The translations under genes were made by a program, and so were the position numbers. A DNA stretch of 64,000 bases from an uncultured Spirochaetaceae bacterium (lineage in GTDB: Bacteria; Spirochaetota; Spirochaetia; Sphaerochaetales; Sphaerochaetaceae). Below, piece after piece: positions 2,106 to 63,278 of the stretch; positions within the stretch are counted from its first letter, which is position 1, and every line of letters begins with the position of its first letter. The notes under the pieces were generated by a model. The model did no database searches, was not told the DNA's origin, and saw only the letters and a program-made list of their open reading frames with translations. Location of the stretch: positions 62,001-126,000 of the forward strand of contig CALXKJ010000004.1 of the NCBI GenBank assembly GCA_944388955.1. Direction: 5' to 3'.

Positions 2106-3503
2106 TTATTCTGATATCATAAGCACAATATTCACGTCACCTCTCTTCACCGGTTCTAGAAGAATCCAGCTAAGATCAACACCTTTCTGAGACTTAATAT
2201 GGGCTGTCTTGCCTATATGTCCAGTCTCACTGCCTCCTCCACCATATCCATCGCTGTAGCTGTATTGATAGCCTCTTGCATTGGCATGCACGTTGATGTC
2301 TATCGCATAATCAGAGTGCACGTCTTCGAATACAACGAGTATGGGCTTGTCGGCAAATCGTCTGATTTCCGACTCATCAATTGTGAAACTATACCTTCCT
2401 CCCATTTCCTCTGCTTTCGCGGGAGAAAGCATGATGAACTCTGACATATCAGCAGCAGTTATCTCTCTAACACTGATTTGTCCTTTGTTTTCATAGCACA
2501 ACTCATTATTCCTATGAGGATTCCACCAATACACAGGGAAATGATGAGCATCATTAACTGGTGGTACATAGAAACATGAAGCATTGTCATCCCGTGATAC
2601 AAGAGGTGCATGGATTAACGCACCATCTTCATTTCCATAGAGCTCAATGTAACCATAATTAATGAGATTTGAATCTTCTGGAAGATCCGTGATTTCCACG
2701 ATCTGGGCATTATCAGAGGCACTTATTTCATAAACTTCAGGGCTTACAAGCGCAGTTTCTGCACCTTTGATAGCAATGGGCGTTCTCAAGCATGTTCTCC
2801 ACCCGCCATTTGAGTCAGGGTAGATTTTCGCACGGAGAGAGTAATTCAGCTGTCCAACGCCCTCAAAGTCGTGGATTGCATGCTTAGGCTTGGAAATCTG
2901 CTCGCAAGCTTCAAATCCTGCAGTTGTCCATCCTCCACCCCTTGTCGCAAGTCTTATGTCAAATATTGCCACTTTGGAGATATCAGTAATGCCATACTCT
3001 TCCGGCTTAGAGAAATCGATACGGTAAAACTCTTCGAAAATCTTCATATATCGTCTTTCTCTATGGTCATAAACATAGAAAAGAGGCTCTTTTGTATAGT
3101 CGAAGTAAAGATCTTTGTCCTTTGTGAGCTCATGCTTTCTCAGCTGGTATGCCAGAAGTTTTTCACCAGTGGAGAGTCCCAAATCCGAAGGTTTGAGACG
3201 TATTCTGCCATCCTCTCCAGGAAGGAGGGAAAAAGAACCTGTCGTGTTATTTCTGTTTATGGATGAATCTGAGGATCTTGTGCTCAGAGTATCAGCACTA
3301 TAAGCTCCATACATCATTCCAGACTGTATATTATCAAGAGGAATTTCATCTTCGGGATTTTCTACATCGATTTCCTCAATCCAGTACGAGCCATCGGATT
3401 CAGGGACAATGATATCACCCATGTATTCATCATGCCCATTCTCAATATTGCATGAGACTAGAAGGAAGATAAAAGCAACCGCATACGCAAACTTTCTTAT
3501 CAT
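2106..3503 (-). CDS. Putative surface lipoprotein of unknown function
   Basis: A 465-residue protein. A lipoprotein signal peptide is visible: basic start MIRK, hydrophobic stretch, then a LVSC lipobox with Cys18. The mature part is acidic and polar, with no transmembrane segment. I recognise no domain. A low-complexity GGWTTAG-type patch lies mid-protein and a Tyr/Gly/Ser-rich patch (SYSDGYGGGGS) near residue 420. The segment alternation looks all-beta. It is transcribed alone from a likely leaderless promoter (a -10 hexamer lies 7 nt before the ATG), with the uxu operon downstream in the same direction. Function unknown; probably anchored in the inner leaflet of the outer membrane or in the periplasm. 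Confidence 0.7.
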   Translation of the reverse strand: MIRKFAYAVAFIFLLVSCNIENGHDEYMGDIIVPESDGSYWIEEIDVENPEDEIPLDNIQSGMMYGAYSADTLSTRSSDSSINRNNTTGSFSLLPGEDGRIRLKPSDLGLSTGEKLLAYQLRKHELTKDKDLYFDYTKEPLFYVYDHRERRYMKIFEEFYRIDFSKPEEYGITDISKVAIFDIRLATRGGGWTTAGFEACEQISKPKHAIHDFEGVGQLNYSLRAKIYPDSNGGWRTCLRTPIAIKGAETALVSPEVYEISASDNAQIVEITDLPEDSNLINYGYIELYGNEDGALIHAPLVSRDDNASCFYVPPVNDAHHFPVYWWNPHRNNELCYENKGQISVREITAADMSEFIMLSPAKAEEMGGRYSFTIDESEIRRFADKPILVVFEDVHSDYAIDINVHANARGYQYSYSDGYGGGGSETGHIGKTAHIKSQKGVDLSWILLEPVKRGDVNIVLMISE

Positions 3504-3510
3504 ATAGATG

Positions 3511-3516
3511 AATATA
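3511..3516 (-). promoter_or_regulatory. -10 element of a probable leaderless promoter (lipoprotein gene)
   Basis: TATATT on the minus strand ends 7 nt before the ATG at 3503, and there is no Shine-Dalgarno. The -35 region is not convincing. It belongs to the window-wide leaderless pattern described in the findings. Confidence 0.45.
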
Positions 3517-3597
3517 ATGGCTAACGCACGTTTTCACCAGCATTGCTCTGATTGCAAGGGAGAGCCAAACCATATATTCTGATGCGGAGGTGGCATA

Positions 3598-4350
3598 ATG
3601 AGGATTACAATCTGTGAAAACAAGATAGAACTCGGCGCACAGGCGGCGGCGCTTGGACGCCATTGCATCAAATCAACAATCGAAAAGCTCGGGAGAGCGA
3701 ATGTAGCGTTCGTGACTGGTACAAGCCAGCTGGAAATGCTGAAGGTCCTCAGGACAAAGCCAATAGAATGGGACAAAGTAAATATCTTCCTGCTAGATGA
3801 GTTCGTGGGATTGCCGGATGGGCATAGCGCCTCATCGGAGACATTCCTCAAGGAGAATTTCCTTAATTATCTTCCTACTATCGGCTCATTCCACCCGATA
3901 TCAAGGACAAAAGATGTCAAGGAGACACTGAAGAATCTCAATGAACTTATGAAGGATTATCCATTGGATGTGGTATTCATCTGTATTGGAGAGAATGGCC
4001 ATCTGGCATTCAATGACCCACCTGCTGATTTTGATGCCAGGGATCCTTACATCGAGGTAACTCTTGAAAGACGCTCAAAGAGGCAGCAGGTCGGCGAAGG
4101 CTGGTTCAGCACAATCGATGAAGTGCCAAATAAAGCTATTACGATGTCTGTATACGAAATACTCACAGCGCGCCATATCATCTGCGCATGCCCAGAACAG
4201 AGGAAAGCCAAGGCCGTGGCTTCCTGTATCTTCGATGATATCTCCCCTGCTGTTCCCTGTGCTTCAATCAGGAGAAGAACAGAATGCGCACTATTTCTTG
4301 ACAGGCAATCGAGCTGCCTTGTCTTCGATGATTTCCGCAATAAAATCTAA
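3598..4350 (+). CDS. Glucosamine-6-phosphate deaminase / NagB family protein
   Basis: A 250-residue protein of the NagB/6-phosphogluconolactonase superfamily. It has [10 protein letters not shown] (Asp67, matching the proton-abstracting Asp of NagB) and [13 protein letters not shown] around residues 129-141 (the GIGxxGHIAFNEP loop with the ring-opening His at 135), followed by an [12 protein letters not shown] segment. Known reaction: glucosamine-6-phosphate to fructose-6-phosphate plus ammonia. It is shorter than classical NagB (about 260-266 residues) and its C-terminus differs (Cys-rich [11 protein letters not shown]), so it may be a divergent subfamily acting on another amino-sugar phosphate. 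Single gene with Shine-Dalgarno GGAGGTGG and its own terminator. Confidence 0.8.
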
Positions 4351-4358
4351 TGGGATGA

Positions 4359-4383
4359 GGGCATCTGCGGATGCCCATTTTTT
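4359..4383 (+). terminator. Rho-independent terminator of the NagB-family gene
   Basis: GGGCATC-TGCG-GATGCCC makes a perfect 7-bp stem with a 4-nt loop, followed by A and six T. It starts 9 nt after the stop codon. Confidence 0.9.
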
Positions 4384-4472
4384 GTCATATCCGACATAAA
4401 CTTCACAAAAATAACAGATAATCTTATTCACCTAGCACATAAAAAATCGTTAGCATCTGAACAGTTGGGAGA

Positions 4473-4521: not shown

Positions 4522-5871
4522 ATGAAGATTCTACCAAAGATCCTGATACTCATGATGTGCATGGTGCCGCTTGGTGCTGAAGAACTTCCTACGATTACGC
4601 TTGATGAGGCTATATCCGCCGCTGCGGAGAATAACCTTGGACTCCGTCAGTCTGAGATAACGCTCAATCAGGCAATCATGAAGCAGAACAGCATCATGAC
4701 AACATACATGCCTACATTAAGCGCATCAGGCAGTGCTTCTACCGGTGCAAGTTTTATATCAAGCTATAATCCTCTTACACAGACTACTGATCCGGGTTTT
4801 ACAGGCCTTGATATTTCCGCAGGACTCGACGCACGCTTCACATTCACCGGCAATATGATTACAGATGCAGAGTCCAGAGCCCTTCAGAAAGAAAGTGCAT
4901 CTATCACATATAGATCAGACTATCATACGCTGGTTCTTGAGGTCTTTTCGGATTACTGGACACTTGCCGCAGATGACCTTGATATAGAAACCCAGCGTCT
5001 TGCGCTAGAAGAAGCTGAAGCGAGCTATCTTTCCACGAAGGAAATGTACGAGAGCGGAATGGCTTCTGAAATCATATTCGCTCAGGCCGAGCAGGCATAC
5101 GAAGAACAGAAGCTAAGCCTGAAAACCGCAGAGGATACAAAAGCCCTCGATATGATTTCCTTCAGAGCGAAAACAGGCATAACAGGAGATTTCCAGACAG
5201 AAGAGCTTCCAGAGACTATCTATCTTGCACTACCTGAGGCTTCAGTCCTCTTTGCCGAGTATGCAGATTCCTCACTTGCCATCCAGTCTGCGACGAACGC
5301 ACTCAATCTGGCCAAGAACAATGAAAAGACCATGACTATGACACAGTATGTACCATCACTCACAGCCTCTGTCGGATACAGCTATACTGGAGGTTTTGGA
5401 AGAACGTGGGATTACGACACATCAAGCCATGGTCTCTCGGGTTCTGTTACTGTCAGCATTCCTGTCTCATCATACATTCCTGGAAGCAGCGCTGATGTAA
5501 ACCGTCGCAGTGCGAAAGAAGACACAAAAAAGACAGCACTGATGGTGGATGAGGCAAAGAATAGCTATCTTGAGGGAATCGAGAAACTCAGAACGACCAT
5601 AGAGCAGCTTCAGGATAGCATCAGAATGAATGAGAAAATGAGAGATCTCTATAAGAAGACATATGATCTTGCAAAGGAGTCATACGATGCAGGACTCATG
5701 TCAGCAGATGATCTTTCATCAGCAAGAAACGATTACCTTACAGCAGAGATGACTCTGACAAGCAAGAGAGTAACGCACCTCACGACATCAGCATCTCTGG
5801 CAGATACACTTGGGATAACCCTTGAAGAGCTTCAGAGCCTCTACGGAATCCCTCAGGAGGAGAAAGCATAA
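4522..5871 (+). CDS. TolC-family outer membrane efflux protein
   Basis: A 449-residue protein with a cleavable signal peptide (MKILPKILILMMCMVPLGAEE, cut near residue 19). Two OEP repeats follow: first about 25-220, second about 240-440, each with long amphipathic helices (for example the LEEAEASYLSTKEMYESGMAS and LYKKTYDLAKESYDAGLMS heptad-like stretches). The family forms a trimeric beta-barrel plus periplasmic tunnel that provides the exit duct. First gene of a three-gene operon with the adaptor starting at the next base after its stop. Shine-Dalgarno AAGGAGCAG precedes the ATG. An outer membrane is implied. Confidence 0.9.
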   Translation: MKILPKILILMMCMVPLGAEELPTITLDEAISAAAENNLGLRQSEITLNQAIMKQNSIMTTYMPTLSASGSASTGASFISSYNPLTQTTDPGFTGLDISAGLDARFTFTGNMITDAESRALQKESASITYRSDYHTLVLEVFSDYWTLAADDLDIETQRLALEEAEASYLSTKEMYESGMASEIIFAQAEQAYEEQKLSLKTAEDTKALDMISFRAKTGITGDFQTEELPETIYLALPEASVLFAEYADSSLAIQSATNALNLAKNNEKTMTMTQYVPSLTASVGYSYTGGFGRTWDYDTSSHGLSGSVTVSIPVSSYIPGSSADVNRRSAKEDTKKTALMVDEAKNSYLEGIEKLRTTIEQLQDSIRMNEKMRDLYKKTYDLAKESYDAGLMSADDLSSARNDYLTAEMTLTSKRVTHLTTSASLADTLGITLEELQSLYGIPQEEKA

Positions 5872-11718: not shown

Positions 11719-11747
11719 TTGCAATGTACCGGAAACAGCGTTAGGCT
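11719..11747 (+). promoter_or_regulatory. Leaderless promoter of adenine deaminase
   Basis: -35 TTGCAA (11719-11724), 17-nt spacer, -10 TAGGCT (11742-11747), then 6 nt (GAAACT) and the ATG. No Shine-Dalgarno is present, so the predicted transcript starts at the ATG or within a base of it. Confidence 0.65.
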
Positions 11748-13913: not shown

Positions 13914-13919
13914 ATATTA
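13914..13919 (-). promoter_or_regulatory. -10 element of the leaderless recX promoter
   Basis: Minus-strand TAATAT followed by AACAGC and ATG. The 17-nt-spaced -35 (TGTGAT) is weak. I see no LexA-type palindrome around it. Confidence 0.5.
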
Positions 13920-17401: not shown

Positions 17402-18707
17402 TGCGCACTCCTTCTAAATCGATGCCTCGCACACGTGTAATACCGACACGCACTCTGTCACCGCTCTTCATCCAGCGTCCCATTATGACAGTAAGCCCAT
17501 CAACATCAGGTGCTTCCGAATAGATTCTGCCTATCGCAAGCTCCTCACCCTCGATCTGCTCCTCCACCAGAGCTATATACTCATGTCCGACGAATCTCTG
17601 GAGATTCTCCTCCGTTATTTTCTGCTGAAACACCTCAAGCTCTTTCTGCCAGCGTGCAGCCTTTTTATGGGCTTTCTCGTGCTCATCCTCACTGCGCATA
17701 TCAAAAGCTGGCGTGTCTTCTTCCCTTGAATAGAGGAATGAGCCCATCCAGTCGAATCTGGCTTCCTCAGCGAATCTCATGACCTCATCGAAAGCCTTCC
17801 TGTCCTCGCCTGGGAAACCAAGCATTATCGTTGTTCTTATGACAGCTTCCGGAAGAGCTTCTCTGATTCTCCTTATAAGAGCAAGGTATTTCTCTCTGTT
17901 TCCCGTGCGCTTCATAGCGTGGAGAACACGCTCATCAGCATGCTGGAATGGGATATCAAGATAAGGAAGAATCTTCTTGCGCTCTTTCATAAGCTCAATA
18001 AGCCCTTCCGGGAATGTGTCAGGGTGGATGTACAGCATTCTGAGGACAAAATCCCCAGGAAGGGATGAAAGCCTATCCATCAGCTCGACAAACCGTGAAG
18101 GCCCACCATCATCTGTACCATAAGCCCCGAGATCCTGAGCGACGATATTTATCTCGTATACCCCGCTTTCGATCAGCCTCTCAGCCTCTTTCAATATCTT
18201 ATCCATCGGTCTCGAGCGCAGACTGCCGCGTATTACCGGAATTGCGCAGTACGAACAGCGATGATTGCAGCCCTCGCTTATTTTAAGGTAAGCGCTTCCT
18301 GGAAAATTAAGGAGCACTTTCCTGTCATCACGCTCCTTCTCTGGAGCAGGGCTATCAGGGATGAGAAGCTTTTCGCGACCTTCCAGGACATCAGGGAAAA
18401 GCGAGAGATCCTTATTGCCGAAGATAGCATCAGCCTCCTCGAGATCCATAGAGCGGCCATAGCGCTCTGCAAGACAGCCAGCCATGATGATTCTCGCCTC
18501 TGGATTCTTCTCATGGAGTGCGAAGAATGTGTTGATACTCTCTTCCTTCGCGCTCTCTATAAACCCGCATGTATTGACTACGATGACATCCGCATCCGCG
18601 GCATCCAGAGTCCGCTCATACCCATTCTCGATAGCATATGTCAGGAGAATCTCGGAATCCACCTGATTCTTAGCACAGCCTAAACTTTCAATATAAATAC
18701 GCTTCAC
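17394..18707 (-). CDS. rimO: Ribosomal protein S12 methylthiotransferase
   Basis: Radical SAM methylthiotransferase that modifies Asp88 of ribosomal protein S12 in E. coli. I choose the GTG at 18707 (437 residues, VKRIYIESLGCAKNQVDSE); a longer in-frame reading adds 150 hydrophobic residues with no homology. GCAKNQVDSE separates RimO from MiaB. The N-terminal UPF0004 domain has three Cys for one 4Fe-4S cluster, the radical SAM loop is CNHRCSYCAIP, and a TRAM-like domain ends the protein (LVEEQIEGEELAIGRI onward). No Shine-Dalgarno precedes the GTG, and a -10 box sits 7 nt before it. Forms an operon with the helicase gene. Confidence 0.93.
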   Translation of the reverse strand: MKRIYIESLGCAKNQVDSEILLTYAIENGYERTLDAADADVIVVNTCGFIESAKEESINTFFALHEKNPEARIIMAGCLAERYGRSMDLEEADAIFGNKDLSLFPDVLEGREKLLIPDSPAPEKERDDRKVLLNFPGSAYLKISEGCNHRCSYCAIPVIRGSLRSRPMDKILKEAERLIESGVYEINIVAQDLGAYGTDDGGPSRFVELMDRLSSLPGDFVLRMLYIHPDTFPEGLIELMKERKKILPYLDIPFQHADERVLHAMKRTGNREKYLALIRRIREALPEAVIRTTIMLGFPGEDRKAFDEVMRFAEEARFDWMGSFLYSREEDTPAFDMRSEDEHEKAHKKAARWQKELEVFQQKITEENLQRFVGHEYIALVEEQIEGEELAIGRIYSEAPDVDGLTVIMGRWMKSGDRVRVGITRVRGIDLEGVRID

Positions 18708-18714
18708 ACAGGCA

Positions 18715-18743
18715 ATCGTATTCAAAGAAGTGCACGTTTGCAA
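18715..18743 (-). promoter_or_regulatory. Leaderless promoter of rimO
   Basis: Minus strand -35 TTGCAA (18738-18743), 17-nt spacer, -10 TACGAT (18715-18720), then 7 nt and the GTG start. Confidence 0.6.
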
Positions 18744-18744
18744 T

Positions 18745-18750
18745 AATAAT
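18745..18750 (+). promoter_or_regulatory. -10 element upstream of the GH28 gene
   Basis: AATAAT followed by AGAAGA and ATG. The hexamer overlaps the divergent rimO promoter. The purine-rich AGAAG could alternatively act as a weak Shine-Dalgarno. Confidence 0.35.
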
Positions 18751-18756
18751 AGAAGA

Positions 18757-20226
18757 ATGAAAGCGAATGCACTTGCAACAGAAACAGCAATCACGCTCTG
18801 GTGGGAGAAACCGGAGAATGCTCCAAGAGAATACCGCTTGTCAATCAATGGCAAGGAAGCCGGAAGGACAGATAAGACACATTTCACATTCTCCGGCCTT
18901 ATGCCATCGACTGAATATGAGATGCATATCACAGGAGATGGTTTTGACGAGCACGTCAAAGCTTCGACTAATAAAAAGAAGAATGTCATAAACATAACCG
19001 AAGCACCGTACTCAGCTATCGGGGATGGAAAGACTCTCAATACGGAAAGCATACAGAGAGCATTCGATGACGCCGGGAAAGATGATGAGATACTAATTCC
19101 TGAAGGCATATTCCTAACAGGAGCTCTGAGAATGCATAGCAATACCACGCTCCACATAGCAATGGGCGGTGTGCTTCAGGGCACGGCAAACCCCGATGAT
19201 TATCTTCCTCGGATTCCATCACGGTTCGAGGGTATCGAGATGGAATGCCTTAGCTCCGTCATCAATATCGGGCATATGAATCATGAAAAAGCTCCGGATA
19301 CGGAGAATATACTCATATACGGTGAAGGTACAATTGCATCCGGAGGGAAAGAGCTTGCGGAGCGCGTCATCAAGGAAGAGACTGAGCGCATACGTCCATA
19401 TCTTGAATCACTCGGCGATAAAATCAAGGAATGCGAGAAGCCGGAGACGATTCCTGGACTCGTAAGGCCAAGGCTCATAAACATCAGCAACGCGAAGAAT
19501 GTGAGGATAACAGGCATAACGCTCAAAGACGGAGCTTCATGGAATGTCCATATCCTCTACTCCGGGAATATCGTGACCGATCATTGCACATTCCGCTCCG
19601 AGAAGGTCTGGAACGGCGACGGATGGGATCCCGATTCATCTGAGAGATGCGTGCTTTTCGCTTCACGTTTCTATACAGGAGATGACTCAGTCGCTATAAA
19701 ATCAGGAAAGAATCCCGAAGGCGATAGAATCGCGAGGGCCGCGAAGAATATACGTGTATTCGACTGCTACAGCGAGTCTGGACATGGCATCATGATAGGA
19801 AGCGAGATGTCTGGAGGTGTCGAGGACGTGTATTTCTGGGATAATGACATAGCGCGCTCATCAAACGGATTTGAGATAAAAGGCACTAAAAAGCGCGGTG
19901 GCTATGTAAGGAATATCCGCATCCGCGATTCCCAATCCCCATGCGTCACCATCCATTCCGTTCCTTACAATGATGATGGAATCCCATCTCCGGATACACC
20001 AATATTCTCAGATATGTCATTCGAGAACCTGACACTCACAGGTATAAAACATGACAACATCACCGGTCAGGTCTCGAAAATCCACGCGATTGACATCGAG
20101 GGTTTCGAGAAGGAAGGCCATGAGATAAGGAATATCAGCTTCCTGAATCCGAAAATCAGAAGCGGAGCCTCTATACATATCACAAGAGCAATCGATGTGA
20201 CTATCTCCGATCTTTCATCATTCTGA
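18757..20226 (+). CDS. Glycoside hydrolase family 28 (polygalacturonase-like), cytoplasmic
   Basis: 489 residues from the ATG at 18757. Residues about 8-80 look like a fibronectin-III-type domain (TLWWEKPENAPREYRLSING), the rest is a right-handed beta-helix. GH28 catalytic motifs: NGDGWDPDSSER (the NxDG element), GDDSVAIKSGK (paired Asp), GHGIMIGSEMSGG (catalytic His) and EIKGTKKRGG in place of the classical RIK. There is no signal peptide, so it probably trims imported oligogalacturonides, feeding hexuronates towards uxuA/uxuB about 17 kb away. Exo-polygalacturonase or a rhamnogalacturonan-specific activity are equally possible. The end overlaps the GH115-like gene by 26 nt, tail to tail. 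Confidence 0.88.
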   Translation: MKANALATETAITLWWEKPENAPREYRLSINGKEAGRTDKTHFTFSGLMPSTEYEMHITGDGFDEHVKASTNKKKNVINITEAPYSAIGDGKTLNTESIQRAFDDAGKDDEILIPEGIFLTGALRMHSNTTLHIAMGGVLQGTANPDDYLPRIPSRFEGIEMECLSSVINIGHMNHEKAPDTENILIYGEGTIASGGKELAERVIKEETERIRPYLESLGDKIKECEKPETIPGLVRPRLINISNAKNVRITGITLKDGASWNVHILYSGNIVTDHCTFRSEKVWNGDGWDPDSSERCVLFASRFYTGDDSVAIKSGKNPEGDRIARAAKNIRVFDCYSESGHGIMIGSEMSGGVEDVYFWDNDIARSSNGFEIKGTKKRGGYVRNIRIRDSQSPCVTIHSVPYNDDGIPSPDTPIFSDMSFENLTLTGIKHDNITGQVSKIHAIDIEGFEKEGHEIRNISFLNPKIRSGASIHITRAIDVTISDLSSF

Positions 20227-22236: not shown

Positions 22237-22242
22237 TAGACT
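22237..22242 (+). promoter_or_regulatory. -10 element of the ABC ATPase gene, leaderless spacing
   Basis: TAGACT ends 7 nt before the ATG at 22250. A weak -35 (TTTTCA) is at 22214-22219. The GH115 promoter lies in the same 60-nt gap on the other strand. Confidence 0.45.
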
Positions 22243-23714: not shown

Positions 23715-23720
23715 TATAGT
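23715..23720 (+). promoter_or_regulatory. -10 element of a leaderless promoter (SprT/DUF2786 gene)
   Basis: TATAGT ends 8 nt before the ATG at 23729, and there is no Shine-Dalgarno. It overlaps the 19-nt space after the ABC ATPase stop. Confidence 0.5.
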
Positions 23721-27247: not shown

Positions 27248-27275
27248 TTGCTGTCTTCTCCAACAAAGCTATAAT
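27248..27275 (+). promoter_or_regulatory. Leaderless promoter of the PNPOx-like gene
   Basis: -35 TTGCTG (27248-27253), 16-nt spacer, perfect -10 TATAAT (27270-27275), then CCGGAT and ATG. No Shine-Dalgarno. Confidence 0.65.
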
Positions 27276-28306: not shown

Positions 28307-28435
28307 CATCAATGGACAGGAAACGCTGTGATTCTTCCTGCGGTTCAGCCTTATGTATGTTTCATCACGGTTGCTTCAATCATGACAGCCGGAGTATTAC
28401 TACCAACTATTTTAAAACGCATGGCAAATGAGTAG
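28307..28435 (+). pseudogene. Possible remnant: hydrophobic 42-codon tail of a membrane protein
   Basis: In the 305-nt gap before aroA, an open stretch after a stop reads HQWTGNAVILPAVQPYVCFI... and ends LLPTILKRMANE-stop, which looks like the last transmembrane helix and tail of a transporter. No start codon or upstream part remains. Its TAG stop forms part of the aroA -10 box. The rest of the gap (28140-28306) shows nothing I can assign. Low confidence. Confidence 0.25.
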
Positions 28436-28438
28436 AAT
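28411..28438 (+). promoter_or_regulatory. Leaderless promoter of the aroA operon
   Basis: -35 TTTAAA (28411-28416), 16-nt spacer, -10 TAGAAT (28433-28438), then CAGCTT and ATG at 28445. No Shine-Dalgarno. Confidence 0.6.
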
Positions 28439-35927: not shown

Positions 35928-38476
35928 ACTACACTGAACCTCCTTCTGCATATTCCGCGGTACTGGCAGCCTGAGCATATGGACTCCGAGGGCTTAGCGC
36001 GCCAGTTGCCTTCCGCAATTCCTTCCGCAGCTTCATGAAGCTCTTCCAGTGCTCCTTCTCCCTTCGCGATAGCCGACTCAGTCATCTTCCCGTCGGTAAG
36101 AGTGATGAAGTAAGCCGCCTCAGCATTACCATAGCCAGATGCCGATAGCAGAAGCGAATATATAACAAACTGATAGGCTTTCCTTGCTTTCTCGTCTTTA
36201 TCAGAAGGTCTTCTGCCTTTCTTATAATCGAATATGACAAGATTTCCATCCTCAAGACGCGCTATCCTGTCAGCTATGCCTTCAAGCGTGAATCCATAGT
36301 CATCGAATTGGTGAGAAAGTCTCTCCTCTAGGCCCCATCCCGAAATAGGGAGGGAAATCTCATTCATCATTCTTACTGCATCGATAAGATGCGGAAGGTA
36401 CCGCCTCCTTATGAATCTGACCAAGGCGTCATCTGCCCTCTTTGAGGATGACGGCATTGCAATCTCCTCTCCGTTTTCCCCCAGTCTCTTACCGGCTTTC
36501 CATAGCTCCATCTCGGCATCAAGAAGCCTTGGGATGTCAATCTCGGGAGCTGTGCAATCTGTCTTGTAATAACGCTCGAGGACACTATGAAGCCTTGCAC
36601 CTATCTCCTTGTGGTCTGTGTCATCAGCCTCATAAGACGGAAGGTCGCGGAGTCCGAACTCATATTGCATAGCGTAACGGAATGGGCAGTCCCTATATGA
36701 TGAGAATGATGTGAATGACAGCCGTACGGGATGCTTTCTTTTCCTGCCTTTGAGCCTATATGTCAGGTCATCATCTCCTTTCCTGCCATGCAAGGAGGCC
36801 TGGATAGCTTTCTCATATCCTGTTTTTTCAATCATGGAGATTCTTTCAACATCACTGCGTGAATTCTCAGCCTGATACGGATCTGACTGAGGAATAATAC
36901 CCTCGGTCCTCACTGCGGAAAGCTCTGAAAGAGGAAGGACAAAACCGCTATATGTCTCAGATGACGCGGAGATATGAAGATGATCCGTGAATGCTGCATA
37001 GAGCTTCAGAAGGGAGAGCGTTATATCCTTCTCATCCCTCTCCGCTTTCAGCTCGTAATCGGACATGAAGGATGCCTTCTTCACGATTCTACGGCTATCT
37101 GATTCATTGAGAGCAATGATGAAACGATAAGGATAATGAAGGGCCGCATCGAGCGTGAATGGGTATACCCTGACTCCCTTCACTCTCGATTGCGGAACAT
37201 ATTTCACATTCTTCATGTATTGCAGGAACAGCGGGAAAAGCGGCTCTGAAAGCCTGAAACCGGCATCTTCGCATCTCGCCGCTTCCGAGAGAAAATCCTC
37301 AAGCTCCTTCATCGCGAATGAATAGACAGACATATCCTCATCATTTCCTGAGAACTGCTCATCCTTCAGAAGTCCGGAAAGAAGCGTGTGAATATATGGA
37401 AGAATCTTCTCCGGACGCTTCTCGGCCATGAGTTTATCTGCAGTCAAGCGAAGAAGCCTGTAGTAAGACACACCATTCCTGCTAGGTATTCTCATATACC
37501 TGTCATCATTTCGATCTGGAGCGGATGTTATCGCATACTCAACTGCCGTGCTGACAAAAAGCCTCAGCGCCTCACTGTCCCTGAATGGAATTGCCGTATC
37601 AAGCATGAAGCTCTTGATGGAATCAAGGGAATAGCCTGAATCATGCATCTCCTGTATTTTCGTCAAGAATGAACCGGAGGATGAAAGAAGAGGAGACTCA
37701 CCTTCTGAGAAATCGAGGGGAATCGAGAAAAGATAGGCCTCTTCCTGCATATAAGGCCTAAGCTTATCAGAAGAAGGTATGGAAATCGCGATTTCATCGA
37801 GTGACACTCCACTATCGAGCAAGTCGCGGATACGCACGAAAAGCGCCCTGATTTCACTTTTCTCATTGTTATAGACTTCATATCGCGGCATCTCGCCATC
37901 GATATCATCAATAAGCATTATCCTTTCATCTTCCCTGAGGAATGAAATGAGATTATCTTCCTTCGGGAATGCCGATGGCATGATGATTGCATATCTATCG
38001 CAGAGGTTATCAGGCATGACAGGCTTCATGAACGAGCTTTCATACTGCCCTGTCCTGTCCAAGAAGTCCCCATAAGCCTTCCTAAGGGCAATAAGATCCT
38101 GAAGTGCATCATGATTCTTGCCTGATACAGCGATGGCATCATCAAGAGATGGAAGCATTGAGAGTATGAAAGTGCCCAGCCTCTTCTCCGCCTCTGGATA
38201 ATCAGGGGATGAGAAATAGCGTAGAGCCGGGACAATCTCTGAGGCGGCATATGAAGCGAATATAGCGCGCGAGGTATCAGATATAGCCTTCTTTCCTGCT
38301 ATCCCAGGATAGAAAGGCTCAGAAAAGCTATCGAATGCAAGAACGGAGGAAGCAAGAAGCCCTTTACGTCTGGAAAGCACGTAATCTGTGGAGAAAGCCC
38401 TTCGGCTCTCCTCTGTTGGAAATACAAGCACAACGCCATCATCGACAAGCCTGAATAGATCCTCGTAACACGTCAT
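35924..38476 (-). CDS. addB: AddB-like nuclease subunit with an iron-sulfur motif
   Basis: I place the start at 38476 (850 residues, MTCYEDLFRLV) because a perfect TATAAT ends 6 nt before it; a further upstream in-frame ATG would lie within the promoter. The N-terminal helicase-like part has no Walker A, so ATPase activity is probably lost. The C-terminal PD-(D/E)xK nuclease shows EGIADRIARLEDGNLVIFDYKKG. Four cysteines sit as in AddB: YRDCPFRYAMQYEFGL before the nuclease and CSGCQYRGIC at the very end, predicted to bind 4Fe-4S. Operon with addA. Confidence 0.82.
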   Translation of the reverse strand: MTCYEDLFRLVDDGVVLVFPTEESRRAFSTDYVLSRRKGLLASSVLAFDSFSEPFYPGIAGKKAISDTSRAIFASYAASEIVPALRYFSSPDYPEAEKRLGTFILSMLPSLDDAIAVSGKNHDALQDLIALRKAYGDFLDRTGQYESSFMKPVMPDNLCDRYAIIMPSAFPKEDNLISFLREDERIMLIDDIDGEMPRYEVYNNEKSEIRALFVRIRDLLDSGVSLDEIAISIPSSDKLRPYMQEEAYLFSIPLDFSEGESPLLSSSGSFLTKIQEMHDSGYSLDSIKSFMLDTAIPFRDSEALRLFVSTAVEYAITSAPDRNDDRYMRIPSRNGVSYYRLLRLTADKLMAEKRPEKILPYIHTLLSGLLKDEQFSGNDEDMSVYSFAMKELEDFLSEAARCEDAGFRLSEPLFPLFLQYMKNVKYVPQSRVKGVRVYPFTLDAALHYPYRFIIALNESDSRRIVKKASFMSDYELKAERDEKDITLSLLKLYAAFTDHLHISASSETYSGFVLPLSELSAVRTEGIIPQSDPYQAENSRSDVERISMIEKTGYEKAIQASLHGRKGDDDLTYRLKGRKRKHPVRLSFTSFSSYRDCPFRYAMQYEFGLRDLPSYEADDTDHKEIGARLHSVLERYYKTDCTAPEIDIPRLLDAEMELWKAGKRLGENGEEIAMPSSSKRADDALVRFIRRRYLPHLIDAVRMMNEISLPISGWGLEERLSHQFDDYGFTLEGIADRIARLEDGNLVIFDYKKGRRPSDKDEKARKAYQFVIYSLLLSASGYGNAEAAYFITLTDGKMTESAIAKGEGALEELHEAAEGIAEGNWRAKPSESICSGCQYRGICRRRFSVV

Positions 38477-38482
38477 GTGGCA

Positions 38483-38488
38483 ATTATA
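38483..38488 (-). promoter_or_regulatory. -10 element of the leaderless addBA promoter
   Basis: Minus strand TATAAT, then TGCCAC and ATG. No Shine-Dalgarno; the -35 is weak. Confidence 0.6.
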
Positions 38489-38514
38489 GCCTTTAATGAT
38501 GGAAATTTGCATGC

Positions 38515-38520
38515 TACTCT
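38515..38520 (+). promoter_or_regulatory. -10 element upstream of the CPBP protease gene
   Basis: TACTCT ends 8 nt before the ATG at 38529, with a plausible TTTAAT -35 at 38492-38497. It lies face to back with the addBA promoter in a 52-nt divergent gap. Confidence 0.4.
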
Positions 38521-38528
38521 GATTGCAT

Positions 38529-39368
38529 ATGGAAAAAGATAGGACGATTTCCCTTTTTGGCCTTATAGCCACCGCGCTTGCTTCATTCTTCGTGCTCTAC
38601 ATCCTTGGAGGGATTGCAGCCTTCTATCTTGCTGAAATCATCGGAAGAGAATCTGTCATATGCCAGTATATCGTGCTTCATACGCCATATATTCTTCTTT
38701 TCCTATTCCTTTTGGCAGCTCCTCCTGTAATGCTGAACACTTCGCTCTTTGGGCTTTCAACACCACAGCATCCAATCAGATGGAAGCTATTCTTCTCATC
38801 AGCTGTAATCTCAATCGTGGTGTACATCCTCTTTTCTCTTTTTTCCATGGATAGAATCAGAGTACTCGAAACGGAATGGCAAACACGCGTATTGCTCCTG
38901 ATTCCCGTTCTGATTCTCACACCGCTTCAGGCATTTTCAGAGGAAATCCTTTTCCGCGTCATTCCCTATCATGCGGCAATCAGAAATGGCAGGACAGGCA
39001 TTGTCAGGATATCAATCTATGCGCTCATATCCGCCCTCATCTTCGCGCTCCCCCATATTCCGAACAATGAGATACAGCAGGCTTCCTCATATCTTCCACT
39101 GCTTTACTATTTCCTATGGGGCTTTCTCGCCGCTATCACAGCAGTGCTTTCCGGAGGTTTTGAAGTGCCAATCGCCATGCATGTAACCAACAATCTCTAC
39201 ATAGTGCTTGCGGTGAATTACGAAGGCTCATCGCTGCCATCACTTCCGCTATTCATGGCAGAAAAACCGACAGCCGCAGCCTCGATAGCGGAAACTGCTG
39301 TATTATATACCGTGATGATTTCACTCCTTGCCTCAACGGGCTATATTGGAAGAAGGAGAAAACCATGA
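38529..39368 (+). CDS. CPBP-family intramembrane metalloprotease
   Basis: 279 residues with about eight transmembrane segments. CPBP/Abi (CAAX-protease-like) motifs: SEEILFRVIPYH (EExxxR, about 139-150), IFALPHIPN (FxxxH, about 176-184) and the later NN in HVTNNLYIV. Such proteases cleave prenylated proteins or bacteriocin precursors, or act in self-immunity; the substrate here is unknown. Overlaps the NUC1 nuclease gene by 4 nt, so the two are co-translated. The ATG at 38529 is preferred over a TTG two codons upstream. Confidence 0.85.
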   Translation: MEKDRTISLFGLIATALASFFVLYILGGIAAFYLAEIIGRESVICQYIVLHTPYILLFLFLLAAPPVMLNTSLFGLSTPQHPIRWKLFFSSAVISIVVYILFSLFSMDRIRVLETEWQTRVLLLIPVLILTPLQAFSEEILFRVIPYHAAIRNGRTGIVRISIYALISALIFALPHIPNNEIQQASSYLPLLYYFLWGFLAAITAVLSGGFEVPIAMHVTNNLYIVLAVNYEGSSLPSLPLFMAEKPTAAASIAETAVLYTVMISLLASTGYIGRRRKP

Positions 39369-41544: not shown

Positions 41545-41554
41545 TCACCCGATT

Positions 41555-41636
41555 GCCCATGTGGCGGAACTGGTAGACGCGCTAGTTTCAGGTACTAGTC
41601 TGTAACAAGGTGGGAGTTCGAGTCTCCCCGTGGGCA
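41555..41636 (+). tRNA. tRNA-Leu (anticodon CAG)
   Basis: 82 nt class II tRNA. Acceptor GCCCATG pairs with CGTGGGC (one G-U), discriminator A. Anticodon arm CTAGT-TTCAGGT-ACTAG gives CAG. A long variable arm (CTGTAACAAGG region) and GTTCGAGTC in the T-loop are present. CCA is not encoded. Confidence 0.97.
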
Positions 41637-41715
41637 TGTTCAGTGGATTATCATCAGCATTCAGCTGTCCTCAGGCAATATTCTTTGCAGCTTCCCATTC
41701 TTTTCATCAGCTTTA

Positions 41716-41744
41716 TTGTCACTTGGATAAACAATTGCTATTCT
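41716..41744 (+). promoter_or_regulatory. Leaderless promoter of the ymdB-lpt-rpoN operon
   Basis: -35 TTGTCA (41716-41721), 17-nt spacer, -10 TATTCT (41739-41744), then CAATGC and ATG at 41751. The hexamers are identical to those of uvrC. Confidence 0.7.
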
Positions 41745-46277: not shown

Positions 46278-46574
46278 ATGAATCTAACATTCAGAGGCAT
46301 CGGATTCACACCTACGGACGAAGATCGTGAATTTCTCGACAAGAAACTGAAGAAACTTTCGTTCGCGGATGACTATCTCCACGATCTGGATATCGTGGCA
46401 ACGAAGGAGAGCAAGGGCATCGGCTTCCATATCGACGCGACACTCCACTTCACATGGAAGAAAGAGAAAGTAGTCTCCCAGGATGCCTACGAACTTTACG
46501 AAGGTATTGAGCTTGTTGCCGATAAAATACAGGCAGCGGCTAAGAAAGAAAAAGAAAAGACAATGAAAATCTGA
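46278..46574 (+). CDS. hpf: Ribosome hibernation promoting factor (short HPF/RaiA type)
   Basis: 98 residues, the short HPF size. FRGIGFTPTDEDREFLDKKLKKL (about 4-26) and IDATLHFTWKKEK show the beta-alpha-beta-beta-beta-alpha fold that sits in the 30S decoding groove. No C-terminal dimerisation extension. Own promoter, strong Shine-Dalgarno and a hairpin terminator, suggesting high, growth-phase-dependent expression. Confidence 0.9.
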   Translation: MNLTFRGIGFTPTDEDREFLDKKLKKLSFADDYLHDLDIVATKESKGIGFHIDATLHFTWKKEKVVSQDAYELYEGIELVADKIQAAAKKEKEKTMKI

Positions 46575-46621: not shown

Positions 46622-46627
46622 TATAAT
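46622..46627 (+). promoter_or_regulatory. -10 element of the leaderless hprK promoter
   Basis: Perfect TATAAT, then 7 nt (TCCCGGT) and ATG at 46635. A TTATTC hexamer 17 nt upstream is a weak -35. No Shine-Dalgarno. Confidence 0.65.
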
Positions 46628-49555: not shown

Positions 49556-51327
49556 AAGCTCAGCTTGTGCAATACCCTCTCCGCGACTGTCTCCGGGATA
49601 GACGCACCTTTTGCAAGCTCAGAAGCTGAGAGACTGAGAATAGCCTCAACTGAGCCATATTTCTGCATGATTCTCTTTGATCTGGCGGGTCCTATACCAT
49701 CAATCGATTCAAGAAGAGAGAATGACGCTTCCTTGCTTCTCATCCTCTGATTGAATGAAGTGGCAAATCGATGGCACTCATCTCTCACCGCGATAAGCAC
49801 ACGAAGACCTGGATTGCCGCGATCAAGGAGCAATGACTCCCTGTCTCCAGGGAAGACAATCTCCTCATGCTCTTTTGCGAGCCCTATAACCGGGAAATCA
49901 AGGCCAAGGGCTGAGAGGGAATCGAGGGCGGCGCTCACCTGCCCTTTTCCACCATCAACCATCAGAAGATCCGGCATCTGAGCTCCTTCATTGAGAAGTC
50001 TCTGATACCGTCGTCCCACTGCTTCCCGCATTGACTGGAAATCGTCGATCTTCCCATCCAGGGACTTTATGGAGAAGTGCCTGTATTCCTTATTCGATGG
50101 ATTACCGTCCCTGAATACAATAAGGGAGGCGACTGTATACTTACCAGAAAGCTGAGCGATATCGAAACCTTCGATATGAAGAGGAAGAGTATCAAGGCCA
50201 AGCTCTTTCTGAAGCACTTCAAGCGATGGAGTGTTATCAACATCACGAAGCCTCTTCTCAACATCTCTTGAAGCATTCTCCGCAGCCATCCTGAGTATCC
50301 TGTAGTGCTTTCCATCCTTAGGCACCGTAATATACACGGGGCTCTTCAGCTCATCGTTGAAGTATCTTGCTAGAAGCTCCGTATCGATATCACAGGAAAC
50401 GAAAACCTCCTGTGGCAGCGTATCACCATCGCTGTAATACTGCACAAGAAATGAGAACAATGTCTCAGTCTCATCGCCAAGGCATTCAGCCCTGTACAAA
50501 GCCTTGCCTATCAGACGCCCTGAGCGGAACTGCATTATCGATATCGTGCATAGATAACTTCTCATCTCGATAGCCACGTAATCTCGGCTATCCGATGTGA
50601 AATCCTCCACCATCTGGTTCTTCTGCATGACCGTAAGAGCCTTAAGCTGATCGCGCTTTCTGGCAGCTGTCTCGAAATCAAGCTCTTTTGCGCTCTTGTT
50701 CATCTCACGCTCGACTTGCTTTATCATCGAGGAATCATCACCGGAAAGGAAATCCTCGATTTCCTTCACATATGATGAGTACTCCTTTTCGGACACGGCT
50801 CCGATACATGGTCCAGCGCACTTATGGATATGATAATAAAGGCATGGCGTCTTCCTCTCTTTCAAAGGAGCTGAACATAGACGGAGAGGATAATTATCCT
50901 CAACAAGCTTGAGATATGTATCAAGCTTCATGCCATCAGGATATGGACCAAAATACTTCGAGCCATCCTTTATTACCCTTCTTGTCTTGTAAATCCGCGG
51001 GAATTTCTCATTGGTTATCCTTATAACAGGATAGCTCTTCCCATCCTTGAGAAGAATGTTGTAATGAGGATTGTACTTCTTGATGAGGTTGTTCTCTAAA
51101 ATGAGAGCTTCATATTCGTTACCGGTGATAACGAAATCTATGGTGACAATCTTCTCTACAAGCGCAGCGGTCTTAGCATTCCTGTTGGGAAGGAAATATG
51201 AAGTCACACGTCTCTTCAGGTTCTTAGCCTTGCCGACGTAGATAACCACCCCTTCCTTATTCTTCATGAGGTAGCACCCCGGAGATTCCGGCAGCTCCCT
51301 CGCCTGCATTCTCGCGCTTTCCGACAT
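49552..51327 (-). CDS. uvrC: Excinuclease ABC subunit C
   Basis: 591 residues. GIY-YIG domain at the start (PGCYLMKNKEGVVIYVGKAKNLKRRV, about 15-40), a UvrB-binding UVR motif around 205-240, UvrC homology/RNase H-like domain with FDIAQLSGKYTVAS and LMVDGGKGQVSAAL, and C-terminal helix-hairpin-helix (ESIDGIGPARSKRIMQKYG). Makes both incisions in nucleotide excision repair. Leaderless promoter divergent from the SPL-type repair gene. Confidence 0.95.
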   Translation of the reverse strand: MSESARMQARELPESPGCYLMKNKEGVVIYVGKAKNLKRRVTSYFLPNRNAKTAALVEKIVTIDFVITGNEYEALILENNLIKKYNPHYNILLKDGKSYPVIRITNEKFPRIYKTRRVIKDGSKYFGPYPDGMKLDTYLKLVEDNYPLRLCSAPLKERKTPCLYYHIHKCAGPCIGAVSEKEYSSYVKEIEDFLSGDDSSMIKQVEREMNKSAKELDFETAARKRDQLKALTVMQKNQMVEDFTSDSRDYVAIEMRSYLCTISIMQFRSGRLIGKALYRAECLGDETETLFSFLVQYYSDGDTLPQEVFVSCDIDTELLARYFNDELKSPVYITVPKDGKHYRILRMAAENASRDVEKRLRDVDNTPSLEVLQKELGLDTLPLHIEGFDIAQLSGKYTVASLIVFRDGNPSNKEYRHFSIKSLDGKIDDFQSMREAVGRRYQRLLNEGAQMPDLLMVDGGKGQVSAALDSLSALGLDFPVIGLAKEHEEIVFPGDRESLLLDRGNPGLRVLIAVRDECHRFATSFNQRMRSKEASFSLLESIDGIGPARSKRIMQKYGSVEAILSLSASELAKGASIPETVAERVLHKLSF

Positions 51328-51333
51328 AGCCTG

Positions 51334-51362
51334 AGAATAGCTTCTCGAAAAGGATTTGACAA
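51334..51362 (-). promoter_or_regulatory. Leaderless promoter of uvrC
   Basis: Minus strand -35 TTGTCA (51357-51362), 17-nt spacer, -10 TATTCT (51334-51339), then CAGGCT and ATG. Its -35 lies a few bases from the -10 of the divergent gene, so polymerases on the two promoters must compete. Confidence 0.7.
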
Positions 51363-51364
51363 CT

Positions 51365-51370
51365 TATACT
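51365..51370 (+). promoter_or_regulatory. -10 element of the SPL-type gene, leaderless spacing
   Basis: TATACT, then CATGTT and ATG at 51377. The 49-nt divergent gap holds both promoters back to back. Confidence 0.6.
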
Positions 51371-51376
51371 CATGTT

Positions 51377-52618
51377 ATGGCCGCACTTGATAACCTGATT
51401 TCATCATTTGATGATGAATTGAGAATAAACATAGAGAATCTTTTCAACCGCTATCATTTCACAGAGAGCCAGAAGCTGGAAATCGCAAAAGACGAAGCTG
51501 ACCTAAGGCAATGGAAGGAGCCTCATTTCTTTTCACTGGCAGATTACCAGAAGATAGACAGAAGGCAGGATGGAAGGAAAGGAGATGCTTATCTATCGGC
51601 GCTCAGGAAGCATATGGACAATCTGAGGAAAAGCGAGACAGATTATTCTTCATTCATACCGGACTTCCGGCCTCGCTCGAAGTACAGGACAGTATTCTCC
51701 GATGAGAAGATAGTTCTCGGAAAATGCCCATGTCCTGTTGATGGAGAGAAGACACGCTGCTGCAAGCTGACAACACTTGATGCTGTCATGCAATGCCCAT
51801 TCTCATGTTCGTACTGCTCTGTGCAGTCATTCTATACGGAGAATGAAATTCATGCGGTCTCAGATCTGAAAGAAAAACTTCTGCATCTGGAAATCAGCCC
51901 TGATACATGGCATATCGGAACAGGACAGGCTTCAGACTCACTCGTTCTTGGCGATGATTACGGAACGCTTAGCGCGCTATCAGCATTCGCAGAAGCTCAT
52001 CCCGATCTCGTGATAGAACTCAAATCAAAATCTGGACGCAACGTCTTTGACAGAAAATATCCCGCCAATATGATATTCACCTGGTCGCTGAATGCACCAA
52101 CAATCATAGAGAAGGAAGAGCATATGACAGCGTCACTCAAAGGACGGCTGGAAAACGCAGAAAGAGCCAGAGACAAAGGTGCACTTGTCGGCTTTCATAT
52201 CCATCCAATGGTCTATTTCAAAGGCTGGGAGGATGAATACAGATATGTTGTCTCCGAGATAGAGAAACGCTTCTCCCCAGATGATATCATCCTCATAAGC
52301 ATCGGGACTCTGACATTCACGAAATCAGTACTGAAGCATCTTCGTGAAAGGGGTGATGAAAGCAGAGTGCTTGAAATGGATCTTGTACCCGCCGCAGGTA
52401 AATTCTCCTATCCGCTTGAGACGAAAAGGAAGATGTTCAGGCATGTTTATTCATCTTTCTCTGAAGATTATCATAAAGATGTATTCTTCTATCTATGCAT
52501 GGAGGATCCCTCATTATGGCAGCCAGTCCTTGAAAGAGAGTACTCATGTGACAAAGATTTCGAGCTGGATATGAAGGAAAGCTACATAGAAAAGATAAAG
52601 AGCAGGAGGAATGGATGA
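51377..52618 (+). CDS. SPL-family radical SAM protein (spore photoproduct lyase-like)
   Basis: 413 residues from the ATG at 51377. Radical SAM cluster CxxxCxxC at Cys140/144/147 (CPFSCSYCS) with GTGQASDSL, ELKSKS and TWSLNA further on, as in spore photoproduct lyase. An additional Cys-rich segment GKCPCPVDGEKTRCCKL precedes it. In spore formers SPL repairs thymine dimer photoproducts; this organism should not sporulate, so the true substrate is open, though DNA repair is supported by the divergent uvrC. Overlaps the hydrolase gene by 4 nt. Confidence 0.8.
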   Translation: MAALDNLISSFDDELRINIENLFNRYHFTESQKLEIAKDEADLRQWKEPHFFSLADYQKIDRRQDGRKGDAYLSALRKHMDNLRKSETDYSSFIPDFRPRSKYRTVFSDEKIVLGKCPCPVDGEKTRCCKLTTLDAVMQCPFSCSYCSVQSFYTENEIHAVSDLKEKLLHLEISPDTWHIGTGQASDSLVLGDDYGTLSALSAFAEAHPDLVIELKSKSGRNVFDRKYPANMIFTWSLNAPTIIEKEEHMTASLKGRLENAERARDKGALVGFHIHPMVYFKGWEDEYRYVVSEIEKRFSPDDIILISIGTLTFTKSVLKHLRERGDESRVLEMDLVPAAGKFSYPLETKRKMFRHVYSSFSEDYHKDVFFYLCMEDPSLWQPVLEREYSCDKDFELDMKESYIEKIKSRRNG

Positions 52619-57813: not shown

Positions 57814-57819
57814 ATTATA
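57814..57819 (-). promoter_or_regulatory. -10 element of the leaderless malQ promoter
   Basis: Minus strand TATAAT, then GAGTAC and ATG. The 17-nt-spaced hexamer TGTTAA is a weak -35. Confidence 0.6.
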
Positions 57820-57865: not shown

Positions 57866-57893
57866 TTGACATCACGTGGCGAGATGGTACAAT
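57866..57893 (+). promoter_or_regulatory. Leaderless promoter of the carD-ispD-ispF operon
   Basis: Consensus -35 TTGACA (57866-57871), 16-nt spacer, -10 TACAAT (57888-57893), then CTATAT and ATG at 57900. This is the clearest leaderless case: both hexamers are near consensus and nothing resembling a Shine-Dalgarno fits. Confidence 0.8.
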
Positions 57894-62662: not shown

Positions 62663-62737
62663 ATCGAATAACCTCTCAAATAGAATTCGTTTTCATTGGG
62701 CATAATACGATGTCCCGCATATGCCACCAGATTGGCA

Positions 62738-62765
62738 TAATAGAGATTTCCGGCGCTTTGTGCAA
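62738..62765 (-). promoter_or_regulatory. Promoter of fusA (distal copy of a repeated element)
   Basis: Minus strand -35 TTGCAC (62760-62765), 16-nt spacer, -10 TATTAT (62738-62743). A second TATTATGCCCAAT element is at 62695-62707, 36 nt closer to the gene, so two tandem start sites are possible. Both copies contain TATTATGCC(C)AAT. Confidence 0.5.
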
Positions 62766-62864
62766 TACGTATATTATCATCCTATCTCATGACAGAGAAT
62801 GATTATATCGACTGCAATTCCAGAAGAACAGCTCTTCAGTCTTCCACTCTGCCCAAACTGGTGG

Positions 62865-62870
62865 TACTAT
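62865..62870 (+). promoter_or_regulatory. -10 element of the leaderless HIT gene promoter
   Basis: TACTAT (with an upstream TGG, extended -10), then CCGGAT and ATG at 62877. The same CCGGAT follows the -10 of the PNPOx-like gene. Confidence 0.55.
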
Positions 62871-62876
62871 CCGGAT

Positions 62877-63278
62877 ATGGCAACTGTATTTGAAAAGATA
62901 ATCAATGGAGAGATTCCATCCGTAAAGCTGTGGGAAGATGCCGAATGCATCGCGATTCTCGATATAAGTCCTGTAAACAAGGGACACGCCCTGGTAATAT
63001 CCAGACGATGCTATCCGACATTCACTGACGCGCCCCTTGAGACGGTCTGCCATATGATGGAAATCGCCCGGAAAATAGACAGGAAGCAGAGAGAGGTGCT
63101 TGGCGCTTCTGGCACGAATATAATGATAAACAACAGTCCCGCATCAGGACAGGAAGTACCACACCTCCATATCCATGTGATTCCAAGATATGACGGAGAT
63201 GGGAAAACACCGGTATTCCAGAAAGATAGCTACAAAGACGGTGAAGCCGCTGCTTTCGGAGAGAAGCTTCATTTATGA
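62877..63278 (+). CDS. HIT-family nucleotide hydrolase
   Basis: 133 residues from the ATG at 62877; an in-frame upstream start adds 26 residues unlike HIT proteins. ATVFEKIINGEIPSVKLWEDAE (about 2-23), DISPVNKGHALVISRR and the catalytic HLHIHVIPRY (HxHxHxx, about 107-116) define the Hint-type branch. Hydrolyses AMP-linked small molecules. Overlaps the next gene by 4 nt (ATGA). Confidence 0.9.
   Translation: MATVFEKIINGEIPSVKLWEDAECIAILDISPVNKGHALVISRRCYPTFTDAPLETVCHMMEIARKIDRKQREVLGASGTNIMINNSPASGQEVPHLHIHVIPRYDGDGKTPVFQKDSYKDGEAAAFGEKLHL

Follow-up and report, generated by a model that had tools for sequence, protein, structure and literature searches.

Operon-leading genes of an uncultured Spirochaetaceae bacterium (assembly GCA_944388955.1) frequently carry a −10-like box, TANNNT, that ends 6 or 7 nt before the start codon. 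The arrangement was studied in a 64,000 nt stretch of contig CALXKJ010000004.1 (positions 62,001 to 126,000, hereafter the window) and in further stretches of the same assembly. Such −10-adjacent starts very probably represent a leaderless promoter architecture, in which messages would begin at or near the start codon. The genes concerned display a promoter geometry with a fixed position relative to the start, absence of a Shine-Dalgarno (SD) sequence, a reading frame that opens at the box-adjacent ATG, and conservation of these features within the genus. UvrC encoded in the window is 79-93% identical to its counterparts in 24 named loci of metagenome-assembled genomes (MAGs; L005-L026, L030, L031). 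Two of these belong to Candidatus Ornithospirochaeta (class Spirochaetia according to NCBI) and the rest to uncultured Spirochaetaceae or Spirochaetales, and the source organism is Ornithospirochaeta-like.

A −10 box at a fixed distance from the start codon

The gene-level tests began from genes and not from boxes. Genes were predicted with a home-made caller using a hexamer coding model, with starts picked by coding score alone. A gene was considered operon-leading if its neighbour was divergent, or if the gap to a co-directional neighbour exceeded 60 nt; with a gap of 21-60 nt to such a neighbour, a gene was assigned to neither the leading nor the internal set. Genes close to the end of a stretch (100-110 nt or less) were left out, as were genes without a called upstream neighbour in weight-matrix runs. 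The assembly comprises 2,116,308 bases in 33 contigs (completeness 95.6%), and gene-level tests cover 864 kb of 2.12 Mb. No match to 16S rRNA was found in this 95.6%-complete assembly, which left no anti-SD tail to examine.

In the window, the box ends 6 or 7 nt before the start of 10/30 leading genes, compared to an average of 1.5 for an offset pair (maximum 6). Outside the window it does so in 33/137 leading genes against a background of 7.1 (p ~1e-13), and the window and 20 stretches taken together give 43/167, where the remaining offset pairs average 8.6. A further sample of 20 more stretches (400 kb) yielded 26/152 leading genes against 7.8 (p 7e-8). The −10 placement that an earlier note had described from the window's sequence is therefore real, and the check for genome-wide enrichment which that note had proposed, run on the part of the genome given above, finds such enrichment. 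In a joint run, for which the coding model was retrained so that totals differ slightly from the sum of the separate samples, 73/316 leading genes carry the box at 6 or 7 nt against 15.9, with 54 genes at offset 6, 19 at offset 7, and 2-15 at each other offset from 0 to 19. Counts of TANAAT upstream of all ATG codons, obtained without gene calls, are weakly informative (33 at offset 6 and 28 at offset 7, with 11-26 at other offsets between 0 and 25). The composite pattern of TTG, box and ATG at 6 nt occurs 58 times in the whole genome, versus 13 times with the ATG at 12 nt.

Several features that were not used to select these 73 genes behave as a transcription start site (TSS) at the start codon predicts. 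A −35-like (TTGACA-like) hexamer is found at a spacer of 17 in 20 genes and of 18 in 8 (28/73), versus 37 summed over 13 other spacers from 10 to 24. The base at −1 is a pyrimidine in 69/73 boxed leading genes versus 149/243 other leading genes; TTG starts are absent from the former (0/73 versus 41/243), and SD sequences are scarce among them (3/73 versus 114/243).

The number of such genes was estimated with a weight matrix that had been built from 68 distinct upstream regions in named relatives and was scored over plausible starts. The training set includes uvrC and SPL orthologues, which touches few of the 316 genes and does not affect the strict TANNNT counts. The matrix describes an extended −10, in which the box is preceded by G at −2 and C at −1 (GC-TATNNT type). 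It selects 97/316 leading genes, whereas decoys average 21.4 (range 12-29); the surplus is ~76 genes or 24%, and the share of the 732 called genes works out at ~11%. On this estimate, leaderless genes would make up about 24% of operon leaders and roughly 11% of the whole gene set. An SD sequence is present in 117/316 leading genes and in 227/310 operon-internal genes. The coexistence of two initiation modes proposed in the earlier note is borne out by the SD-less boxed leaders beside the SD-bearing internal genes. Its suggestion that the leaderless mode dominates did not survive, given the size of the excess and the greater frequency of SD sequences; because so many leading and internal genes carry an SD, the genome appears to be mixed and not dominated by leaderless genes.

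A peak of TANNNT could also be a mere by-product of A+T-rich, unstructured initiation regions, i.e. of leadered, S1-type initiation without SD, and leading regions are indeed A+T-rich. However, the peak is found only at offsets 6 and 7, together with a phased −35-like hexamer and, in relatives, the extended −10; among orthologues the box is conserved and the bases between box and ATG mostly are not. Moreover, no excess was observed at gene level in Paenibacillus (6/172 versus 8.3), nor in G089 (7/57 versus 8.0), the most AT-rich genome tested at this level. A compositional origin of the peak is thus extremely improbable.

Individual cases in the window were listed by hand in the earlier note, and the hit rate of this list is for that reason not counted as evidence. 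The note placed a −10 hexamer 6-8 nt before the start of 20 genes; this holds for 17 of them (15 at 6-7 nt), with the box ending at 6 nt in 11, at 7 nt in 4 and at 8 nt in 2 (Table 1), and fails for GH28, GH115 and XRE. Similarly, absence of an SD 4-mer was verified for 19/20 cases, the exception being XRE with an SD-like AAGGA. The good −35 hexamers noted for several cases were recovered at ymdB, uvrC, rimO and carD. A tRNA-Leu(CAG) gene is located at 41554-41637, ~110 nt upstream of ymdB. The longest ymdB open reading frame (ORF) opens at GTG 41610 and overlaps this tRNA gene, which makes ATG 41751 the likelier start.

Table 1. Position of −10 boxes relative to start codons in the window, with hpf as SD-led contrast gene (coordinates are those of the box, except for hpf).
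Gene	Coordinates	Strand	Description
lipoprotein (label of the earlier note; no Pfam match)	3511..3516	-	−10 TATATT, 7 nt before ATG at 3503
adenine deaminase (ade)	11742..11747	+	−10 TAGGCT (weak hexamer), 6 nt before ATG 11754; Pfam
recX	13914..13919	-	−10 TAATAT, 6 nt before ATG 13907; Pfam
rimO-like radical SAM gene	18715..18720	-	−10 TACGAT, 7 nt before GTG 18707; −35 TTGCAA, spacer 17; Pfam
ABC ATPase gene	22237..22242	+	−10 TAGACT, 7 nt before ATG 22250; Pfam
SprT-like gene (zincin of the earlier note)	23715..23720	+	−10-like TATAGT, 8 nt before ATG 23729; outside the 6/7 peak
PNPOx-like gene	27270..27275	+	−10 TATAAT, 6 nt before ATG 27282; Pfam
aroA	28433..28438	+	−10 TAGAAT, 6 nt before ATG 28445; start of coding-only caller 28481; Pfam
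addB of the earlier note (PD-(D/E)XK nuclease domain, Pfam)	38483..38488	-	−10 TATAAT, 6 nt before ATG 38476
CPBP protease gene	38515..38520	+	−10-like TACTCT, 8 nt before ATG 38529; divergent partner of addB
ymdB	41739..41744	+	−10 TATTCT, 6 nt before ATG 41751; −35 TTGTCA, spacer 17; start of coding-only caller 41763; Pfam
hprK	46622..46627	+	−10 TATAAT (TGC-extended), 7 nt before ATG 46635; Pfam
uvrC	51334..51339	-	−10 TATTCT, 6 nt before ATG 51327; −35 TTGTCA, spacer 17
SPL-like gene	51365..51370	+	−10 TATACT, 6 nt before ATG 51377; divergent to uvrC; Pfam
malQ	57814..57819	-	−10 TATAAT, 6 nt before ATG 57807; Pfam
carD	57888..57893	+	−10 TACAAT, 6 nt before ATG 57900; −35 TTGACA, spacer 16; Pfam
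HIT gene	62865..62870	+	−10 TACTAT, 6 nt before ATG 62877; Pfam
hpf (S30AE domain, Pfam)	46278..46574	+	SD-led contrast gene just upstream of hprK

Conservation among orthologues and placement of start codons

Orthologues, own copies included, were searched for TANNNT at 6 or 7 nt before an in-frame ATG or GTG within 36 nt of the homologous start. The box is present at this position in 30/30 carD loci (the best 30, with 47/48 genus genomes matched), in 29/30 hprK orthologues (41 genomes matched) and in 26/29 addB orthologues (47 genomes matched), the hprK and addB sets reaching down to ~32% protein identity. Eight decoy offset pairs gave 0-8 hits each for these three genes, and hpf, as a control, showed the box in 0/22 orthologues and an SD in 22/22. 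Among named close relatives the arrangement is found for uvrC in 23/24, and for SPL in 23/23 of those with a start found. For CPBP, 5/7 orthologues have the box at 6 or 7 nt, the copy in the window not being among the five. Orthologues lacking a usable start were left out (one each for hpf, addB and SPL). A same-genus genome contains an hprK match with one in-frame TGA (G167:C4:14116-15114).

The true start could in principle lie further downstream with its own SD, in which case the promoters would be real, the transcripts leadered and the box-adjacent ATG misannotated. An in-frame start with an SD 4-mer does occur 15-90 nt downstream in 9/70 leaderless-type genes; such starts are found alike in 14/114 SD-led leading and 20/227 SD-led internal genes, so that enrichment is absent or slight. 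Conservation with codon periodicity, furthermore, opens at the box-adjacent ATG in hprK, addB and uvrC. From this codon onwards, mean majority identity at codon positions 1/2/3 is 0.98/0.96/0.63 for hprK (29 orthologues with aligned start), 0.66/0.78/0.47 for addB (19) and 0.86/0.91/0.54 for uvrC (24), i.e. lower at the third position than at the first two. Taken together, the periodic conservation and the lack of enrichment argue against misplaced starts, which are a very unlikely explanation.

Dual promoters are common in bacteria, and the −10 near the start might be a minor one, with most mRNA produced from a leadered promoter upstream. In carD orthologues, however, sequence upstream of the promoter is largely dissimilar by eye while the −10 is kept, and divergent pairs with 48-57 bp between genes are boxed on both sides, so that a second promoter would hardly fit in without reaching into the adjacent gene. 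Predominant transcription from upstream is thus improbable, although less so than misplaced starts.

A number of observations weigh against leaderless architecture as the explanation. The starts are those of a home-made caller, the orthologue comparison accepts any in-frame ATG or GTG within the 36 nt allowed, and the rate of boxed leading genes is lower in the further sample (17%) than in the first (26%). Among the listed genes, GH28, GH115 and XRE have no TANNNT ending 3-11 nt upstream of the start, and the two cases at 8 nt fall outside the 6/7 peak. The uvrC arrangement is kept in 0/3 of the distant named loci L027-L029. Finally, internal genes also show some excess with the matrix (19/310 versus 12.4 at threshold 2; 11 versus 1.2 at threshold 5), which is small and is read as internal promoters or miscalled operons.

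Under leaderless architecture, these genes would be served by ordinary housekeeping-sigma promoters, with a −35-like hexamer at a spacer of 17-18 and, in close relatives, an extended −10. Promoter placement would let transcription start at the start codon or no more than one or two bases away from it, and the ribosome would then have to engage the 5′-terminal AUG or GUG of the leaderless mRNA directly. SD-dependent initiation would operate alongside, at most operon-internal genes and at leading genes that look highly expressed. It is from sequence that we infer the sigma factor, the 5′ end of the transcript, leaderless translation and expression levels.

Codon adaptation, gene functions and divergent gene pairs

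Codon adaptation was calculated relative to 22 genes of a presumed ribosomal-protein operon (of which only L2 was verified there), genes of the reference region being left out of the comparison. Its median is lower in leaderless-type leading genes (0.574, n=70) than in SD-led leading genes (0.633, n=111; p 6e-11), and 4/70 of the former versus 47/111 of the latter belong to the top quartile. The medians of leading genes that lack both signals (0.587, n=127) and of internal genes (0.594, n=292) are close to the leaderless-type value, and the claim is therefore limited to highly adapted leading genes, which use SD. Expression levels are those we infer from codon usage. Of 80 drawn proteins, 40 (20 leaderless, 20 SD-led) were scanned against NCBIfam. 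Matches were obtained for 13/20 leaderless genes, including uracil-DNA glycosylase, deoxyinosine glycosylase, HflX and a FolD-like protein. The 15/20 SD-led genes with a match include three transporter substrate-binding proteins, an outer-membrane protein, S21, glycine hydroxymethyltransferase, PtsI, a glutamine synthetase family protein and GyrB.

Genes uvrC and SPL (51327-51377) are divergent, with 49 bp between their ATG codons and boxes at 6/7 nt on both sides, and this back-to-back form is conserved in named close relatives. Divergent pairs with 48-52 bp between starts are located in the window at 51327-51377, 38476-38529 and 18707-18757, and elsewhere at 5212-5261 of locus L094 and 3088-3141 of L100. 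The L094 and L100 pairs, like uvrC-SPL, have the box at 6/7 nt on both sides, and leaderless-type boxes on both sides are thus a property of some of the tightest pairs of this genome (48, 49 and 52 bp). Divergent gaps of 46-65 bp represent 14/92 in this genome versus 0/54 in Paenibacillus-type loci; the corresponding values are 0/13 for G038, 1/12 for G019 and 2/20 for G089. In a larger sample, divergent-side genes with a gap of at most 65 bp number 32/184 in this genome, 32/108 in G019, 8/116 in G038, 6/40 in G089 and 0/108 in Paenibacillus. Compact divergent gaps were considered as a mark of leaderless genomes and rejected, as short gaps are still more frequent in G019 (L103-L106, L140-L143, L264-L283), a GC-rich member of the class in which leaderless genes are few.

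It is tempting to speculate that leaderless initiation serves in this genus as a dedicated low-output channel for enzymes of DNA repair and maintenance and for further genes with ordinary codon usage, with leading genes for abundant proteins keeping SD and some divergent pairs of ~50 bp carrying two back-to-back leaderless promoters. A weaker form would extend through the sampled class, expanded in the genus and lost in the AT-rich, small-genome family f12. This composite proposal is tentative and, on balance, doubtful, and the abundance of short gaps in G019 slightly lowers its odds. If it were true, the whole leaderless set could be shifted at once via the ribosome or initiation factors.

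Distribution among spirochaetes and comparison with known systems

Occurrence in other lineages was assessed in 120 Spirochaetota genomes, a subset of a larger group, each at least 80% complete. Counts of TTG, a spacer of 17, TANNNT and ATG at 6 nt were compared there to those of the same pattern at 12 nt. In the class without family f12, 16/16 genomes (own included) exceed twofold, with 1,225 versus 346 in sum. Family f12, which consists of small genomes of the same class (G089 has 28% GC), gave 71 versus 105 over three genomes (G089, G114, G119), i.e. no leaderless signal. Outside the class, the pattern was counted 5,515 versus 4,003 times over 101 genomes, with 11 above twofold; 11/101 pass individually after Bonferroni correction (G022, G030, G062, G075 and seven f21 genomes). 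Sums were 494 versus 458 for non-spirochaete controls (seven Firmicutes genomes and one of Melainabacteria), and 142 versus 45 for two Ornithospirochaeta genomes and one uncultured Spirochaetaceae MAG.

At gene level, loci of the 24 named relatives have the box at 6/7 nt in 73/162 leading genes versus 8.6, a figure inflated by shared orthologues. G019 is intermediate (18/202 versus 7.9), the distant loci L027-L029 gave 5/30 versus 1.7, and G078 1/36 versus 0.8 in 80 kb. G038 (family f10) showed no excess by the strict gene-level count in 560 kb (19/246 versus 23.3) and a weak one with the weight matrix in the same 560 kb (26 versus 18.3; 8 versus 3.2 at threshold 6), despite which its whole-genome pattern count is 112 versus 34. 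The strong form is thus a feature of this genus; the class-wide claim, which is based on pattern counts, would concern a weaker and partly inconsistent signal that seems absent from one AT-rich family.

A literature search, with most subscription papers outside its reach, returned no study of leaderless genes in Sphaerochaeta or of leaderless mRNA in Treponema, the match for the latter dealing with toxin-antitoxin systems. The passages available from the literature contain no precedent for the codon-adaptation link, the interlocked divergent pairs or the lineage differences, although precedents may exist elsewhere. A literature match for divergent leaderless promoters concerns a mycobacterial gene pair (PMC5648196).

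With these observations, leaderless expression would reach beyond Leptospira into a genus of uncultured gut spirochaetes, whose clear promoter signature may serve to fix start codons that SD-based annotation could misplace. Initiation mode would be tied to codon adaptation in one genome. The lineage series (high in the genus, lower elsewhere in the class, no signal in one family) asks what permits gain or loss of leaderless translation.

The leaderless mode itself is already known in other bacteria, including one spirochaete, Leptospira. The mycobacterial transcriptome also combines leaderless and SD-led genes in a mixed economy, as appears to be the case here, in high-GC Actinobacteria. What is added here is a high leaderless fraction in the genus, a weaker and inconsistent class signal, and an apparent exclusion of the mode from genes of high codon adaptation.

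The earlier note had considered dominance of leaderless genes in a spirochaete notable. Precedents for the mode in this phylum exist (PMC5243855, PMC3160421). In Leptospira interrogans, likewise of Spirochaetota, TSS mapping by differential RNA sequencing (dRNA-seq) yielded ~440 mRNAs with a 5′ untranslated region (UTR) below 10 nt, widespread beside SD-led ones (PMC5243855). Start sites were mapped directly in Leptospira, whereas those of the present genome, which is of another lineage, are predicted from sequence; apart from sigma-54 sites, no other promoter motifs were identified according to the abstract of that report, unlike the clear −35 and −10 signature seen here (PMC5243855). A computational survey using the same type of signal found leaderless genes in 6/18 Spirochaetes genomes at 1.8-6.9% of genes (PMC3160421), compared to a higher estimate of ~11% obtained here by a different method. 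GeneMarkS-2 defines a leaderless class that is a related known category, as told in PMC9581028. Another known system is the "−10 motif adjacent to ORF" of Deinococcus-Thermus, in which the −10 abuts the start codon and coexists with a ribosome-binding site (RBS) motif (PMC12340547). It concerns ~30% of ORFs there and was tested with reporters, versus the ~11% of genes estimated here from sequence, and the bacterial-domain survey in Fig S7 of the same study may already include spirochaetes (PMC12340547).

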